Positions 2,733-41,198 of a stretch of 64,000 nucleotides of DNA are shown here, one piece after another. Positions within the stretch are counted from its first letter, which is position 1; each line of letters starts with the position of its first letter. The notes below the pieces were generated by a model. It was not told the DNA's origin, did no database searches, and was given only the letters and a program-made list of their open reading frames with translations. The stretch covers positions 1 through 64,000 of the forward strand of contig NZ_WOTO01000052.1 in NCBI RefSeq assembly GCF_010993775.1. Reading direction: 5' to 3'. The translations under genes and the position numbers were made by a program. This DNA is from Fodinicola feengrottensis (GTDB taxonomy: Bacteria > Actinomycetota > Actinomycetes > Mycobacteriales > HKI-0501).

Positions 2733-3762
2733 TTAGCGCTGGCCAGCGGTCCAGGCCAGCAGCTCGTCGACCGGCCACGTGTTGACGATGTGGTCGACGG
2801 GCGCGCCGCTCAGAGCCGCGCGTTCGCAGCCGTACGGTTGCCAGTCGAGCTGGCCGGGGGCGTGCGCGTCGGAGTCGATGGAGAGCAGGCAACCGGCCTC
2901 GATGGCCAGCCGGAGCAGCCGCTTGGGCGGGTCGAGACGGTCCGGCCGGGAGTTGATTTCCACCGCCGTACCAGCGCTCGCGCAGGCCGGGAAGATCCGC
3001 GCCGGGTCGAACTCGGACTCCGGCCGGTTCTTGCCCTTGACCTTGCGGCGGCCGGTGCAGTGCCCGAGAATGTCGGTGTGCGGGTTCTGGACGGCGGCCA
3101 GCATCCGCTCGGTCATCTGTTCCCGACCCATCCGCAGTCCACTGTGGACGGACGCGACCACCACGTCGAGCTGGGCCAGCAACTCGTCTTGCTGGTCGAG
3201 CGAGCCGTCGTCGAGGATGTCGACCTCGATGCCGGTGAGTACGCGGAACGGCGCGACAGCCTCGTTGACCTTCGCGATCTGCTTCAGCTGCTTCGACAGT
3301 CGTTCGGCGGACAGCCCGTTGGCGACCGTGAGCCGCGGCGAATGGTCGGTGATCACGAGGTAGTCGTGGCCCAGGTCGATGGCCGCGGAGACCATCTCCA
3401 CCAGCGGCGATCCGCCGTCCGAGGCGTCCGTGTGACTGTGGCAGTCGCCGCGCAGCGCGGCCCGGATCCGCTCGCCGCCGACCGCTACCGGTTCGCCGCC
3501 AGTGGCCTCTAGCCGGCGGAGGTAGACCGGTTCCTCGCCGGCGAGGGGACTCACCGATGCAGCGCGCGGTCACCTCGCCGACTCCGCGTAGCTCGCCAAG
3601 CGTGCCGGCGGTGGCACGCTCGGCCAGGTCATCGCGGCCGGCGATCGCGGTGGCCGCGGACCGGAAGGCCTTCACCCGGTACGTCGACTCGCCGGCCTTC
3701 TCCAACAGGAAGGCGATCCGCTTGAGGTCAGCGAGCGGGTCCCGGGGGGGGTCTGCGGCCAT
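2733..3762 (-). CDS. PHP-domain phosphoesterase with PolX-like N-terminal helices
   Basis: Metal-dependent phosphoesterase of the PHP superfamily. About 75 N-terminal residues (LKRIAFLLEKAGESTYRVKA, RGVGEVTA) resemble the 8-kDa/helix-hairpin-helix region of PolX DNA polymerases. They are followed directly by a PHP domain with metal motifs HSHTDASDGG, VITDHSPRLT, GIEVDIL and SIDSDAH. No polymerase palm domain lies between, giving ~340 residues, so this is the stand-alone PHP form and not a full PolX. The frame changes at the GGGG run 3545-3548, which splits CIGES from LAGEEPVYL; removing one base joins them. Start ATG 3762. The in-vivo substrate is unknown. Confidence 0.8.
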
Positions 3763-6755: not shown

Positions 6756-7039
6756 GCGAACCGTCCCTGAGCTGCGAGTTTAGTTGCCAGCGGCGCCGCC
6801 ATTGCCGCCGCTGGCAGATCTGTGGGCAGAGGTGGGTGGGGAGCCCGGTCGCGTTGGTTTACTTCCTCGCGTAACCGGTCGAACTGACCCCGATGGGTTC
6901 ACGTCCGATTCCCCCTCCGCGTCGCGGATGCACCTCGATGTGCGTCGGGTCCGGCCAAAAATGCCACCAACATCCCCCTCGGTGACGACCTACGTACCCG
7001 TCGTGACGAAAAGCATATGAGTTGTCGGTAATCGTGCAT

Positions 7040-36005: not shown

Positions 36006-37750
<1,745 letters not shown>

Positions 37751-38119: not shown

Positions 38120-38455
38120 CCACACCGGCATTCAACTCAGCCCCGTCGGCATTCACCCCAGCCACGCTCGCGCGGCGGCCGGAGGCCGCCCAGGTTCGTG
38201 GCGGTGGGGTGCCCGTTCTTTGGGCGCCCCGGCGACGCGAGCCGGATGCGCCGCCGCAGGAACTGCGGCCGTCAACTCAGCCACACCGGCATTCAACTCA
38301 GCCCCGTCCGCGCGGCGGCCGGAGGTCGCCCAGGTTCGTGGCGGTGGGGTGCCCGTTCTTTGGGCCCCGCCCCGCGACGCGAGCCGGATGCGCCGCCGCA
38401 GGAACTGCGGCCAACAGCTCTGCGAGCCGGATGCGCCGCCGCAGGAACTGCGGCC
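38120..38455. repeat. Tandem-repeat-rich non-coding region
   Basis: A 28-bp element at 38120-38147 recurs at 38281-38308. A ~57-bp element at 38169-38225 recurs at 38309-38365. A 34-bp element containing the hairpin GCCGCAG-GAA-CTGCGGC recurs at 38237-38270, 38379-38412 and 38422-38455. Together they form about two copies of a ~140-160-bp unit plus one partial copy. The whole gap 37880-38473 has no supported gene; the short frames across it are simple translations of the repeats. Confidence 0.85.
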
Positions 38456-38473
38456 AACAGCTCAGCAGTGCGG

Positions 38474-39040
38474 TCATGACACAGCACGTACCGGTGTGCC
38501 GCCGGCGACGGTGAATTCGAGGCGGACCTGGATGTCGGTTTCCAATGATCCGTACGTGTGCGATCGCCTCGGACTCGACCTGGCGGCGGACCGCGCCGAG
38601 GTCGGCGCCTGGTTCGACGGTGACCTTGAGCACCAGGCGGGGATGGGCCGGCCGGCCGGTCAGTCGGGCGGTGGCTCGCCACACGCCGGCGTAGTCGGCG
38701 ATCTCGTTGCCGACCGCGTCCAGGATCGCCCGGGTCAGCAGCATCGTGCTGCGGCGGCGGCCGGGTCGCTGGCCAGCTCCAGCCGGCTGACCCGGTCACT
38801 GGCCAGCTGCGCGGTCACCCACAGCAGCCCGAGCAGGGCCAGCAGCACCGCGGCGGCGACCACGGCAGGCCAGAACCAGGAGTGGTTCGCGGCGATGAAG
38901 GTGGTCGCCTCGGCTGGGAGTAAGGCGTCGTTGCCGAACAGGAACAGCCCAGCCGCGATGCCGGCCGCGCCGGCGACCAGCAGGACGAAACCCAGCAGCG
39001 CGAGGACGATCCGGTTGGCCCGGTCGGCGCGCGGGTTCAC
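38474..39040 (-). CDS. AmaP-like membrane anchor of Asp23-family proteins
   Basis: About 188 residues. Two N-terminal membrane segments (IVLALLGFVLLVAGAAGIAA, WPAVVAAAVLLALLGLLWVT) are followed by a cytoplasmic Asp23-like alpha/beta part (LTRAILDAVGNEIADYAGVW, PRLVLKVTVEPGADLGAVRR, ending TYGSLETDIQVRLEFTV). AmaP proteins anchor Asp23 to the membrane in Firmicutes; the actinobacterial function is inferred. Frame breaks lie near 38740 and 38555. Last gene of the Asp23 operon; its ATG overlaps the stop of the DUF6286 gene. Confidence 0.8.
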
Positions 39041-39576
39041 CGGTCGCCTCCGGTGATCACTCGTACGGTCACCCGCGGTGGTCGGGCCAGTCCGATGTCG
39101 GCGATCCGCTGCGTCACCCGCTGGGCCACCCGGGTCGCCACTTCCTTGTCCTGTTCTTCGTCGTGCCTGGTGGTCACGAGTCGGATGATCGCCCGCCGCG
39201 GTCCGAGGTTGACGGCCGTCGCGCGTACGCCGTCCTCAGCGGCCGCGGCGGCGTCGATCGCCTTGCGCAGCGAGCTGCGCGGCAGGACGGGGTCGATGCC
39301 GTCGGCGGCGCCGGACAGCTCCACGAAACGGCGCTGCCGTGGCCACAGCTGGGAAATCAGCAGTACGAGTCCGACGACCGCGACAGCGACCAGCACGGCC
39401 CGTACCGAACTGGATTGCCAGGTGCGCCCGGCGAGCAGCGCGGCGACGTTCTGGTACGGGATCAGCCAGCGCGCCTGGCCGAGGTTCGCCAGCACCACCT
39501 CGACGGTGACCAGCACCGCGATGGCCACCATCGCGATGCCGATGACCAGCGCCAACATCCGGTTCACGAGCCGCAT
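39037..39576 (-). CDS. Membrane protein, DUF6286-like
   Basis: 179 residues. Two membrane segments (MLALVIGIAMVAIAVLVTVE, AVLVAVAVVGLVLLISQLWP) and a cytoplasmic C-terminal domain (SLRKAIDAAAAAEDGVRATA, RAIIRLVTTRHDE, RVTQRIADIGLARPPRVTVR) resembling the Asp23 fold. Intact. ATG 39576 overlaps the stop of the preceding Asp23 gene (TGATG). This gene type recurs in actinobacterial Asp23 clusters. Confidence 0.75.
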   Translation of the reverse strand: MRLVNRMLALVIGIAMVAIAVLVTVEVVLANLGQARWLIPYQNVAALLAGRTWQSSSVRAVLVAVAVVGLVLLISQLWPRQRRFVELSGAADGIDPVLPRSSLRKAIDAAAAAEDGVRATAVNLGPRRAIIRLVTTRHDEEQDKEVATRVAQRVTQRIADIGLARPPRVTVRVITGGDR

Positions 39577-39976
39577 CAGACCACCCGCGGCCCGGTCGGC
39601 GTGCTCACATCGGACAGCGCCGCGACAGTGATGTCGACCGCGGTGACCGGCAGCCCGGTGAAGGTGGTGACCCGTTCGGTGACGTGGTCGCGGACCTGCT
39701 GGCAGACCGTACGAATGCCGTGTGGCCATCGCACGCAGACCTGTAGGTGGACGCTGGCCCGGCCGGCGACGATCCGGGCGCTGGCCCGGGGTGGCGAGTC
39801 GATTCGGCCGATGGACGCCCGCCCAGCACTCGCCGCGGCGGGCCGGAGACGGCGTCGATCTCGGCGGCGGCGGTGGCCGCGATCCGCTCCACCACCCGGT
39901 TCTCGATCTCCAGGCCGCCGCGTTGGCCGGGGTCGTCCAGCTCAACCGTCTTGGCCAGGCTGACCGGTTCGGTCAT
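39576..39976 (-). CDS. Asp23/Gls24-family envelope stress response protein
   Basis: About 133 residues: GLEIENRVVERIAATAAAEI, DAVSGPPRRVLGG, then after a frame break near 39790 GRASVHLQVCVRWPHGIRTV, CQQVRDHVTERVTTFTGLPV and TAVDITVAAL, the Asp23 signature of a strand, a helix and TG(L/M).V..V(D/N)(I/V).V. ATG 39976 overlaps the stop of the small membrane gene. Third Asp23-type gene in the operon. Confidence 0.8.
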
Positions 39977-40159
39977 CGTGGCCGGCGGCCGTTGCCGCCC
40001 AGGTAGCTGGAGATGTCCAGGTCGCCGTCCAGGATCTTGCCGACGCCCAGGCCCCACCGCGCCAAAGACGATCGCGGCCAGGAATCCGAAGAACCCGCCG
40101 ACCGCGGTCGCGATGGCGATCAGCAGTCCGGCGAACAGACCAATCGTGGTGCGTGACAT
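39973..40159 (-). CDS. Small membrane protein, DUF2273-like
   Basis: About 61 residues. A single hydrophobic hairpin (TIGLFAGLLIAIATAVGGFF, GFLAAIVFGAVG) is followed, after a frame break near 40055, by LGVGKILDGDLDISSYLGG, the soluble tail conserved in small proteins of Asp23 clusters. Stop overlaps the next Asp23 start (ATGA). Confidence 0.72.
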
Positions 40160-40174
40160 GGGAAAGTCCTCTGG

Positions 40175-40411
40175 TCAGTGAACGCGTGGATGGAACCGGC
40201 GCTGGATTCTGCGGTTGATCCAGGCGGTGACGCCCGGATTCCACCACCGCTGCCGGTACGCGACCGTGGTGCCGGCGACCGGGCGATCCCGCAAGGATGC
40301 CACCCCGGCCGCGAAAACCTCTGGGTCACCGCCCCGGTCGGGGTGGTTTTCCCGTACGAAGGCACGGAAAGCGCGCCGGCGTTCGGTGGGGTCCGCTGGC
40401 CAGCCGGTCAT
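40175..40411 (-). CDS. Small protein with J-domain-like HPD motif
   Basis: 78 residues: RRRAFRAFVRENHPDRGGDP, EVFAAGVASL, then a basic tail (YRQRWWNPGVTAWINRRIQR). The HPDRGGDPEVF segment closely mimics the helix II-III loop of DnaJ J-domains, which bind DnaK, but the flanking helices are short and a G/F region or zinc finger is absent. ATG 40411 overlaps the stop of the second Asp23 gene. It may be a DnaK recruiter for this membrane complex; this is speculative. Confidence 0.65.
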   Translation of the reverse strand: MTGWPADPTERRRAFRAFVRENHPDRGGDPEVFAAGVASLRDRPVAGTTVAYRQRWWNPGVTAWINRRIQRRFHPRVH

Positions 40412-40717
40412 GGCGCGAGGACCACGTCGTCGACCGTGACATCGATCGGCAGATCTCCGACAATGTCCCGTACGGCAGCTCGGACGCCTTCAGCGACCGC
40501 GAAAACCGAGTGTCCAAACAGGACGGCCACGTCCACGGCCACCCCGTCCGGACGCAGCCGGCCGGACACCCAACACCCGGCGGCCGGGAAGGTAGGTGGC
40601 GACCTCACCGAACCGCCCGGACCGTAGCCCGGCCACGCCAGGCGCAAGCAGCACCGCCGCGGCGACGGTGTCGGCCAGTACGCCGTGGACGGTGGTGGAA
40701 GGCAGGGGTTGGCTCAT
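40408..40717 (-). CDS. Asp23-like protein, short form
   Basis: About 102 residues. VHGVLADTVAAAVLLAPGVA, GEVATYLPGRRVLGV, then after a break near 40562 RPDGVAVDVAVLFGHSVFAV and DIVGDLPIDVTVDDVVL. It follows the Asp23 order (strand, helix, DVTVDDV ending). The stop overlaps the HPD-protein start and the start overlaps the stop of the first Asp23 gene. Confidence 0.72.
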
Positions 40718-41198
40718 ACCACCCGGGCCGACTCCTCGGCCTCCGGCTCGTCGCCGGGGATGTGGATGTCGTTGACCGCGATGTTCACCTCGGTCACCTC
40801 CAGGCCGGTCATCCGCTCCACCGAGTCGATGACGTTGCGCCGGATGGGCGGCCGCGAGATCGGCGATGGACACGCCGTATTCAGCCACGATGTTCAGGTC
40901 GACGGCGGCCTGCCGCTCGCCCACCTCGACTGACACGCCCTGGGTGATGTTCGGGCCACCGGCGCCGACCGGGATCCGTTTCGCGCAGCGCGCCGAGCGC
41001 GCGGCCGACCGAACCACCCAGCGCGTACACGCCCGAGATCTCCCGGGTCGCGATGCCGGCGATCTTCTTCTGGACGACCCCGTCCGCGATGATCGTCCGC
41101 CCCTCCGGGCCGGTCAGGCTCTCGATCTCGGCGCCGGGTACGAGGGTGGTGTGGCCCGGCTTGGACGCGGACTTGCTGGCGTTCGCGGACTCAGCCAT
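40714..41198 (-). CDS. Asp23/Gls24-family envelope stress response protein
   Basis: About 160 residues, first gene of a seven-gene operon. A Ser/Ala-rich N-terminus is followed by IIADGVVQKKIAGIATREIS, GVYALGGSVGRALGALRE, GVSVEVGERQAAVDLNIVAE, YGVSIADLAA, IRRNVIDSVERMTGLEVTEV and NIAVNDIHIP, an almost textbook Asp23 sequence. Two frame breaks lie near 40975 and 40850. ATG 41198 has GGAAGGGAAC upstream. Asp23 proteins are membrane-associated general-stress proteins in Firmicutes; the actinobacterial role is unproven. Confidence 0.85.

Follow-up and report, generated by a model that had tools for sequence, protein, structure and literature searches.

Asp23 is an abundant protein that is widespread in Gram-positive bacteria (PMC5437119). 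The Asp23 of S. aureus forms filaments in vitro and rings in the absence of AmaP, and it resides on the inner face of the membrane through AmaP (PMC6954212). As in S. aureus, the actinobacterial operons considered here place Asp23 genes together with a gene for an AmaP-like protein, but they add asp2, asp3, a DUF6286 gene and a gene for a small protein with an HPD motif (the HPD gene).

In the Chlamydomonas chloroplast, the J-protein CDJ2 is devoted to VIPP1, a membrane-stress protein that builds large assemblies, and HSP70B, CDJ2 and CGE1 assemble and disassemble VIPP1 in vitro (PMC10602608). The likeness to the CDJ2-HSP70B-VIPP1 system is one of analogy only, and the HPD protein differs in that its gene shares an operon with that of its presumed client. 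VIPP1 is a member of the PspA family and is not known to be related to Asp23. The literature searched, which mostly lacked subscription papers, yielded no report that links Asp23 to a J-domain; two matches, judged from their titles, use Asp23 as a residue name.

Organization of the Asp23 operon

The window, which is the whole stretch of 64,000 nucleotides of Fodinicola feengrottensis DNA that was analysed, carries seven genes on the minus strand that a sequence-only reading had grouped as one operon, and this grouping is upheld. The gene asp1 (40714..41198) encodes the first Asp23-family protein, an assignment based on a Pfam Asp23 (PF03780) score of 35.7 bits (cut-off 28) in one broken fragment, on tblastn matches over three frames with the intact protein of a same-genus genome (G001), and on matches over the Pfam cut-off for asp1 of relatives; its last codons read ARVV, a C-terminal R-V-x. 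The second, divergent Asp23-like protein is encoded by asp2 (40408..40717) and has no R-V-x end, and Pfam Asp23 matches 9 of 23 members of the asp2 family at E<=0.1 (best 1.9e-6). The open reading frame at 40175..40411 is the HPD gene, whose product has the 78 residues and the HPDRGGDPEVF motif previously read from the letters; it ends in PRVH, and the His of HPD is the codon 40345-40343.

Downstream lie the genes of a DUF2273-like small membrane protein (39973..40159; Pfam DUF2273 below the cut-off in the broken frame), of the third Asp23-type protein, asp3 (39576..39976; ending in PRVV), of a DUF6286 protein (39037..39576; PF19803, 66.7 bits, cut-off 35) and of an AmaP-like membrane anchor (38474..39040), the exact 3' end of which is uncertain. 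NCBIfam anchor_AmaP (NF033218, cut-off 55) gives 29.3 bits for the AmaP-like protein, itself split by a frameshift, and 33 bits for the DUF6286 protein. A sequence search with asp1 of G001 for a solved Asp23 structure gave none at E<=0.1.

The linkage by mostly 4-bp overlaps, as first described, is confirmed at asp1/asp2, asp2/HPD (the HPD gene starts inside the asp2 stop), DUF2273-like/asp3 and DUF6286/AmaP-like, together with the 15 bp gap between the HPD and DUF2273-like genes; the asp3/DUF6286 junction is a 1-bp overlap (TGATG). Frameshifts, which the sequence-only reading had missed, split five of the seven genes in a tblastn comparison with the intact operon of G001 (locus L187): asp1 is distributed over three frames, and asp2, the DUF2273-like gene, asp3 and the AmaP-like gene over two each, so that only the HPD and DUF6286 genes occupy a single intact frame. 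The leuA gene close by is split too, and the assembly (G000, 8.7 Mb) is rated 74.6% complete. These frameshifts are read as assembly indels rather than decay. A DnaK-type HSP70 is encoded in the genome, as are two canonical J-domain proteins.

Conservation and distribution of the HPD gene

The window protein, used as query against 61 genomes, matches at 13 places distributed over 12 genomes, and each of the 13 has HPDxGGD. A larger named set of 80 loci was retrieved by a pattern containing HPD and GGD, and its perfect HPD conservation is therefore no evidence; operons were accordingly located by Asp23 and asp2, and the slot was inspected afterwards. Operons located without recourse to the HPD gene contain 78 intervals of 200 nt or more between asp2 and the DUF2273-like gene, and 73 of these hold an HPD reading frame (71 by script, with L164 and L239 added after reading), and in the remaining five either asp2 itself extends (three) or no plausible reading frame exists (two). 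None of the 64 shorter intervals (<200 nt) contains one. The profiles used were trained on HPD-bearing operons and may miss very divergent operons without the gene.

HPDxGG is present in 70/70 tabulated slot reading frames, and helix II carries Arg at -11 in 60/70 and at -7 in 69/70. The two arginines match R37 and R41 of Hsc20 (D50 being that of HPD), which are Hsp70-contact positions; their alanine variant loses Ssq1 binding in simulation (PMC7289447). The 78-residue product encoded between asp2 and the DUF2273-like gene is a conserved family.

The position of the gene varies by lineage (it follows asp2, heads the operon or stands at its far end), and within the class of the window it nearly always adjoins asp2; as shown by sequence comparison, it belongs to Asp23 operons of several gene orders. 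No J-domain or HPD gene is found beside Asp23 at 34 Bacillota loci in windows of about 3.3 kb. Asp23 does not depend on the HPD protein everywhere, because many Asp23 operons lack the gene, as the short intervals and the Bacillota loci indicate. An apparent fusion of HPD and Asp23 domains occurs at L036 only, and this reading is unreliable since the protein contains an unknown residue and runs unusually far. A few Amycolatopsis copies of the HPD gene stand apart from any Asp23 operon.

Predicted fold and origin of the HPD protein

The protein is laid out as helix II, HPDRGGD, helix III, a variable linker and a basic C-terminal helix. Neither of the two results that would have refuted the J-domain proposal of the sequence-only reading occurred: every positional orthologue whose slot holds a gene keeps HPD, and AlphaFold models of two members contain an antiparallel hairpin of helix II, HPD and helix III (helices 8-22/30-41 and 9-23/31-43), at moderate confidence (pTM 0.46 and 0.41). 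The best PDB match of both models in Foldseek is the Tim14 J-domain (2guz_A), which is weak, with E above 1, and VIA-align gives a Z of 4.4 for DnaB, equal to that of Tim14; Foldseek alone does not settle the predicted fold. The best PDB sequence match is the Euglena complex I subunit NDUEG6 (8iuf_E6, E 3.3e-4). Tim14/Pam18 and NDUEG6 are parts of organelle systems, and neither match is strong or extends beyond the hairpin.

Family searches with Pfam and NCBIfam reveal no family that covers the HPD protein. The window protein scores 11.9 bits against Pfam DnaJ (PF00226), under the cut-off of 27.8, and 20 of 64 scanned members of the class type match it at E<=1 (best E 0.051). Helix I, sought as an LGV-type motif roughly 22 residues N-terminal to HPD, is absent from all 69 members of the class of the window. 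The same small protein occurs in Asp23 operons of other classes of the phylum, and these outside-class relatives possess helix I in 12/12 cases; 6 of the 10 scanned pass Pfam DnaJ, and all 10 reach E<=1e-4. A profile-profile comparison of the N-terminal 46 columns with canonical actinobacterial J-domains scores 47.1 (60 column shuffles reach 16.5 at most), and the tails inside and outside the class are alike (26.1; none of 100 shuffles exceeds 12.0).

Because the outside-class operon relatives have helix I and mostly pass Pfam DnaJ, descent from a true J-domain is inferred. On sequence grounds, the HPD protein derives from such a domain and keeps the basic helix II, the invariant HPD loop and helix III, having lost helix I in the class of the window. 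It is classed as J-domain-derived and not as a canonical member since helix I is absent. It also differs from J-domains of the DnaJ/Hsc20 type in lacking any helix IV and in having, at about 70-110 residues, a basic C-terminal module of its own. The alternative that HPD arose by chance in a basic peptide that binds nucleic acid or membranes and has no J ancestry finds some support in the small, arginine-rich protein and the weak fold matches, but it can be dismissed in view of the slot census, the profile-profile score and the graded series that leads up to Pfam-positive J-domains in the Asp23 operon.

The C-terminal tail

An R-V-x end is present in 50 of 82 HPD proteins (about four in ten are without it), as well as in asp1 (202/281), asp3 (64/103) and AmaP-like proteins (37/65), and it is also found in Bacillota Asp23 and AmaP-like proteins. 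It is nearly absent from asp2 (0/178), DUF2273-like proteins (1/177) and canonical DnaJ (0/9). Ribosome-binding-site codons do not account for it: AGG is not the predominant Arg codon, and the translationally coupled asp2 and DUF2273-like genes have no R-V-x. The end is inferred to be a docking tail common to the HPD protein, Asp23 and the AmaP-like protein. The common tail, the missing helix I and the full J-domain in operons of other classes were not known to the sequence-only reading.

Possible function

The presence of a J-domain-derived protein in an Asp23 operon suggests that Hsp70 is used by these bacteria to control the membrane-bound Asp23 assembly. The reading preferred here, with a probability of roughly 0.68, is that the HPD protein is a dedicated J-type co-chaperone of the Actinomycetota Asp23 envelope-stress system that recruits DnaK to the Asp23/AmaP assembly; DnaK binding, ATPase stimulation and Asp23 remodelling are inferred, and so are the chaperone recruitment and the place as a subunit of an Asp23 membrane complex that the sequence-only reading had proposed. 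The C-terminal module with its R-V-x end would dock the protein on the assembly at the inner membrane face, the hairpin would bind DnaK-ATP and trigger hydrolysis, and DnaK would then clamp onto Asp23 or a neighbouring client, which may loosen or reset the assembly after envelope stress. The neighbouring gene product asp2 may support the hairpin where helix I has been lost. Asp23 is a plausible target in that the S. aureus protein forms filaments (PMC6954212).

A more specific form of this proposal, in which the system resembles auxilin or CDJ2, is tentative: the helix-I-less J-protein would dock through the R-V-x code on an Asp23 membrane filament or coat that DnaK dismantles or resets after envelope stress, and asp2 would complete the truncated J-domain in trans.

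The HPD protein may instead be a general recruiter through which DnaK reaches the membrane to act on damaged membrane proteins or nascent chains, with the Asp23 assembly as scaffold and not client. This explanation overlaps with the preferred one and, although somewhat unlikely, meets no decisive objection: linkage alone does not identify a client, the common R-V-x tail argues for docking only, and the membrane location of S. aureus Asp23 through AmaP (PMC6954212) agrees with it.

Retention of the Hsp70-facing residues is also compatible with a brake or tether, in which DnaK is bound by the hairpin but only weakly stimulated, helix I being lost and helix III short, and is parked at the membrane or kept from clients until stress frees it. 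Helix III spans about 12 residues in the HPD protein, compared with 18 for DnaJ residues 41-58, and it is needed for the hydrolysis-triggering push in simulations (PMC13012618). This is nevertheless improbable, as HPD is invariant (70/70), its D would be needless for a mere tether, and the J-domain of the outside-class relatives, encoded in the same operon, is complete.

Marginally weaker still is the explanation that the hairpin no longer binds Hsp70 and that the J fold has been repurposed for a structural role within the Asp23 assembly. Tim16/Pam16 has such a J-like fold without co-chaperone activity, and the loss of helix I and the sub-threshold DnaJ scores within the class fit a comparable fate. 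However, degenerate J-like subunits typically lose HPD, and few positions of the HPD protein are as well conserved as HPD and the Hsp70-contact arginines.

If the co-chaperone reading is true, an operon-encoded J-protein would make the control of Asp23 filaments and their membrane attachment directly accessible to biochemistry with the HPD protein, DnaK, GrpE and ATP. It would also show that a J-domain lacking helix I can function or be completed in trans. The R-V-x end represents a possible docking code that can be tested. In two genomes of a single genus, clpB immediately precedes the operon, and in one of them an HSP70 gene is present on the same strand.

Organization of the operon in the window

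The minus strand carries, in order, the genes asp1, asp2, HPD, DUF2273-like, asp3, DUF6286 and AmaP-like, beginning at 41198 and ending at approximately 38474. The sequence-only reading described this region as a seven-gene Asp23/AmaP operon linked mostly by 4-bp overlaps, with 15 bp between the HPD and DUF2273-like genes; the genes, the overlaps (four of six junctions) and the 15-bp gap hold, and asp3 and DUF6286 overlap by 1 bp. The HPD gene (40411-40175, minus strand; 78 residues) is intact. Comparison with the intact operon of a genome of the same genus (G001, locus L187) reveals that frameshifts split five of the window's operon genes, and these were treated as assembly errors. The neighboring leuA-like gene (36006-37735) is also split, into two frames, one of many indel signs in an assembly with a completeness rating of 74.6% at 8.7 Mb. 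Just downstream of the operon, at approximately 38200-38480, lies a repeated GC-rich block (GAGCCGGATGCGCCGCCGCAGGAACTGCGGCC and relatives). Additional Asp23 loci exist in the same genome (G000:C52:46539-47899, G000:C20:49497-50494 and G000:C13:75964-76290), and the operon at C52 contains asp2 and lacks an HPD gene.

The HPD gene belongs to the Asp23 operon

When the window HPD protein was used as the query against 61 genomes, 13 places in 12 genomes were obtained, all carrying HPDxGGD, and R12, H23, P24, D25, G27, G28, D29, F33 and G36 are invariant in their alignment. A profile search of 296 class genomes matched 50, although the weaker matches include ordinary J-proteins, and a scan of named genomes yielded 80 loci from Pseudonocardia, Saccharopolyspora, Amycolatopsis, Frankia, Actinomadura and others, a few of which are likewise ordinary J-proteins. 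No Pfam or NCBIfam family describes these proteins in the scan performed; DnaJ appears below the cut-off in 20 of 64 members, with a best E of 0.051.

Since HPD formed part of the pattern used to choose the named set, operons were also located independently of that motif, by Asp23 and by asp2. The Pfam Asp23 search was positive in 48 of 148 class genomes (64 loci, including G001), and the asp2 profile search was positive in 102 of 298 genomes of the order and 56 of 296 of the phylum. After exclusion of the re-fetched L187, the pooled loci contain 142 distinct asp2/DUF2273-like neighbor pairs, of which 78 have an interval of at least 200 nt. An HPD ORF was detected by script in 71 of these, and two more ran past the script filter (L164, which coincides with L122, and L239); the interval is filled by an extension of asp2 itself in L266, L320 and L324, and no plausible ORF is present within that of L209 or L308. 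None of the 64 shorter intervals holds an HPD ORF. A separate gene in this interval is therefore always HPD (73/73), and H, P, D and both glycines are conserved in all 70 tabulated ORFs, which bears out the conservation in operon orthologues on which the sequence-only proposal of a J-domain-like, chaperone-recruiting subunit depended. HPD.GG matches were also found in 81 operons, some few of which may be spurious frames (the interval census is the stricter count), and in none of the 23 operons in which asp1, not asp2, adjoins the DUF2273-like gene.

The association persists despite changes in gene order. The HPD gene directly precedes the DUF2273-like gene within the Asp23 operon in 104 of 123 loci, as counted from a listing in which some loci were fetched twice. 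The class, along with part of the phylum, has the order asp1-asp2-HPD-DUF2273, and several genomes of other classes of Actinomycetota have HPD-DUF2273-asp1-asp2-DUF6286-AmaP, whereas the gene lies at the far end of the operon in L353 and on the opposite strand in L364. A few loci, such as L022 and L041, lack asp2 at the threshold applied. As counter-cases, three Amycolatopsis copies (L054, L071 and L078) have no Asp23 gene within approximately 5 kb; these stand-alone proteins nonetheless end in PRVR or PRVQ.

J-domain ancestry and loss of helix I

In a profile comparison, the N-terminal 46 columns score 47.1 against 13 canonical actinobacterial J-domains, compared with no more than 16.5 in 60 column shuffles and 16.3 for the reversed profile, and on such sequence comparisons descent from a true J-domain is established. 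The best PDB sequence match is the Euglena complex I subunit NDUEG6 (E 3.3e-4 when 13 rows were used, 0.005 when 64 were), whose matched stretch carries a J-type HPDxGGD. The helix II/III hairpin, whose absence would have counted against the J-like assignment, is predicted around HPD in two AlphaFold models. In the window protein, helices 8-22 and 30-41 flank HPD and a C-terminal helix spans 59-72 (pLDDT 75.5, pTM 0.46); the Saccharopolyspora spinosa member has helices 9-23, 31-43 and 63-78 (pLDDT 78.7, pTM 0.41). The Tim14 J-domain ranks first in the fold search for both models, and J-domain proteins are three of the four matches of the S. spinosa model, although all matches are weak (E above 1); VIA-align against Tim14 gives Z values of 3.2 and 4.4, the second model tying with DnaB.

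The clearest evidence for J-domain descent comes from relatives outside the class. Among 40 larger windows, hand-chosen from 60 listed places with class members excluded, 12 encode a small HPD protein within the Asp23 operon or next to it. Helix I is present at the correct spacing in all 12, compared with 0 of 69 class members, by a rule accepting LGV and close variants. Six of the 10 scanned exceed the Pfam DnaJ cut-off, and all 10 have E of 1e-4 or less. The C-terminal modules of the two groups also match (26.1, compared with at most 12.0 in 100 shuffles). Together, these comparisons indicate that helix I was lost in the class, most simply once, although no tree was built. Class members retain the HPD loop together with helices II and III, the parts of the J-domain that bind Hsp70 (PMC7289447, PMC13012618).

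Conserved Hsp70-contact residues

Relative to the HPD histidine, the tabulated ORFs (n = 70) carry R at -11 in 60, R at -7 in 69, R/K at -3 in 62 and F at +10 in 63, and the last D of GGD in 62. The E. coli DnaJ residues at -11 and -7 are R22 and K26. In Hsc20 (HPD Asp = D50), R37, K38 and R41 of helix II make electrostatic contact with Ssq1, and binding is lost in simulation of the R37A,R41A variant (PMC7289447); R37 and R41 lie at -11 and -7, exactly the two conserved arginines of the HPD family.

A shared C-terminal end

In loci found without HPD selection, R-V at positions -3 and -2 from the C-terminus (R-V-x) ends 202 of 281 asp1, 64 of 103 asp3, 50 of 82 HPD, 37 of 65 AmaP-like and 37 of 214 DUF6286 proteins, compared with an R-V dipeptide frequency of 0.6-2.4% inside the same proteins. 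The end is nearly absent elsewhere in the operon (asp2, 0/178; DUF2273-like, 1/177), and none of nine canonical DnaJ proteins has it. The tripeptide is thus common to unrelated operon proteins across L002-L420; its origin as a by-product of translational coupling was ruled out. In Bacillota, R-V-x ends Asp23 at 22 of 30 loci and the AmaP-like protein in 16 of 23 matches (counted from a listing), with no J or HPD gene in 34 windows, so the J-protein seems to have adopted an old Asp23/AmaP end. On the simplest reading, R-V-x would be a docking tail of the J-protein, with an unidentified reader.

Proposed function

Whereas J-domain descent, the conserved HPD and contact residues, the place in the operon and the common C-terminal end are shown, it is only inferred that the HPD protein would dock on the Asp23/AmaP assembly and recruit DnaK, that hydrolysis would follow, and that the assembly may thereby be remodelled. 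DnaK recruitment of some kind is assigned a probability of about 0.8. Remodelling of Asp23 itself is more tentative, with the odds somewhat against it; it is plausible because S. aureus Asp23 assembles into filaments in vitro and, when cells lack AmaP, into rings (PMC6954212), and because VIPP1, like Asp23 a membrane-stress polymer, is both assembled and taken apart by HSP70B together with the J-protein CDJ2 (PMC10602608). Weak stimulation of DnaK or mere tethering remains a live rival, since helix III is required for the triggering push (PMC13012618), yet is short in the HPD protein. What appears new is a variant on a known theme, a J-domain derivative that lacks helix I and is proposed to be dedicated to Asp23; in the open-access literature searched, with much literature beyond reach, no paper was found that joins Asp23 with a J-domain or that concerns a comparable helix-I-less J-protein.

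Neighboring genes

In two genomes of one genus (G034:C9 and G364:C120), clpB lies immediately upstream of the Asp23-HPD operon, and it was seen in none of the other loci collected. On one strand of the G364 contig, an HSP70 match (1-417) is followed by Clp_N at 3624 and asp2 at 6992; in G034, Clp_N (432733) and asp2 (436013) also share a strand. Additionally, the Asp23 or HPD genes in some loci are adjoined by a sigma-70-type factor, by a protein in which an Asp23-like part follows a Cys/His cluster, or by both (L004, 1831-2948; L003, 2403-3035; L012, 41-604), as named by eye without a profile, and a sigma/anti-sigma link to Asp23 is possible.
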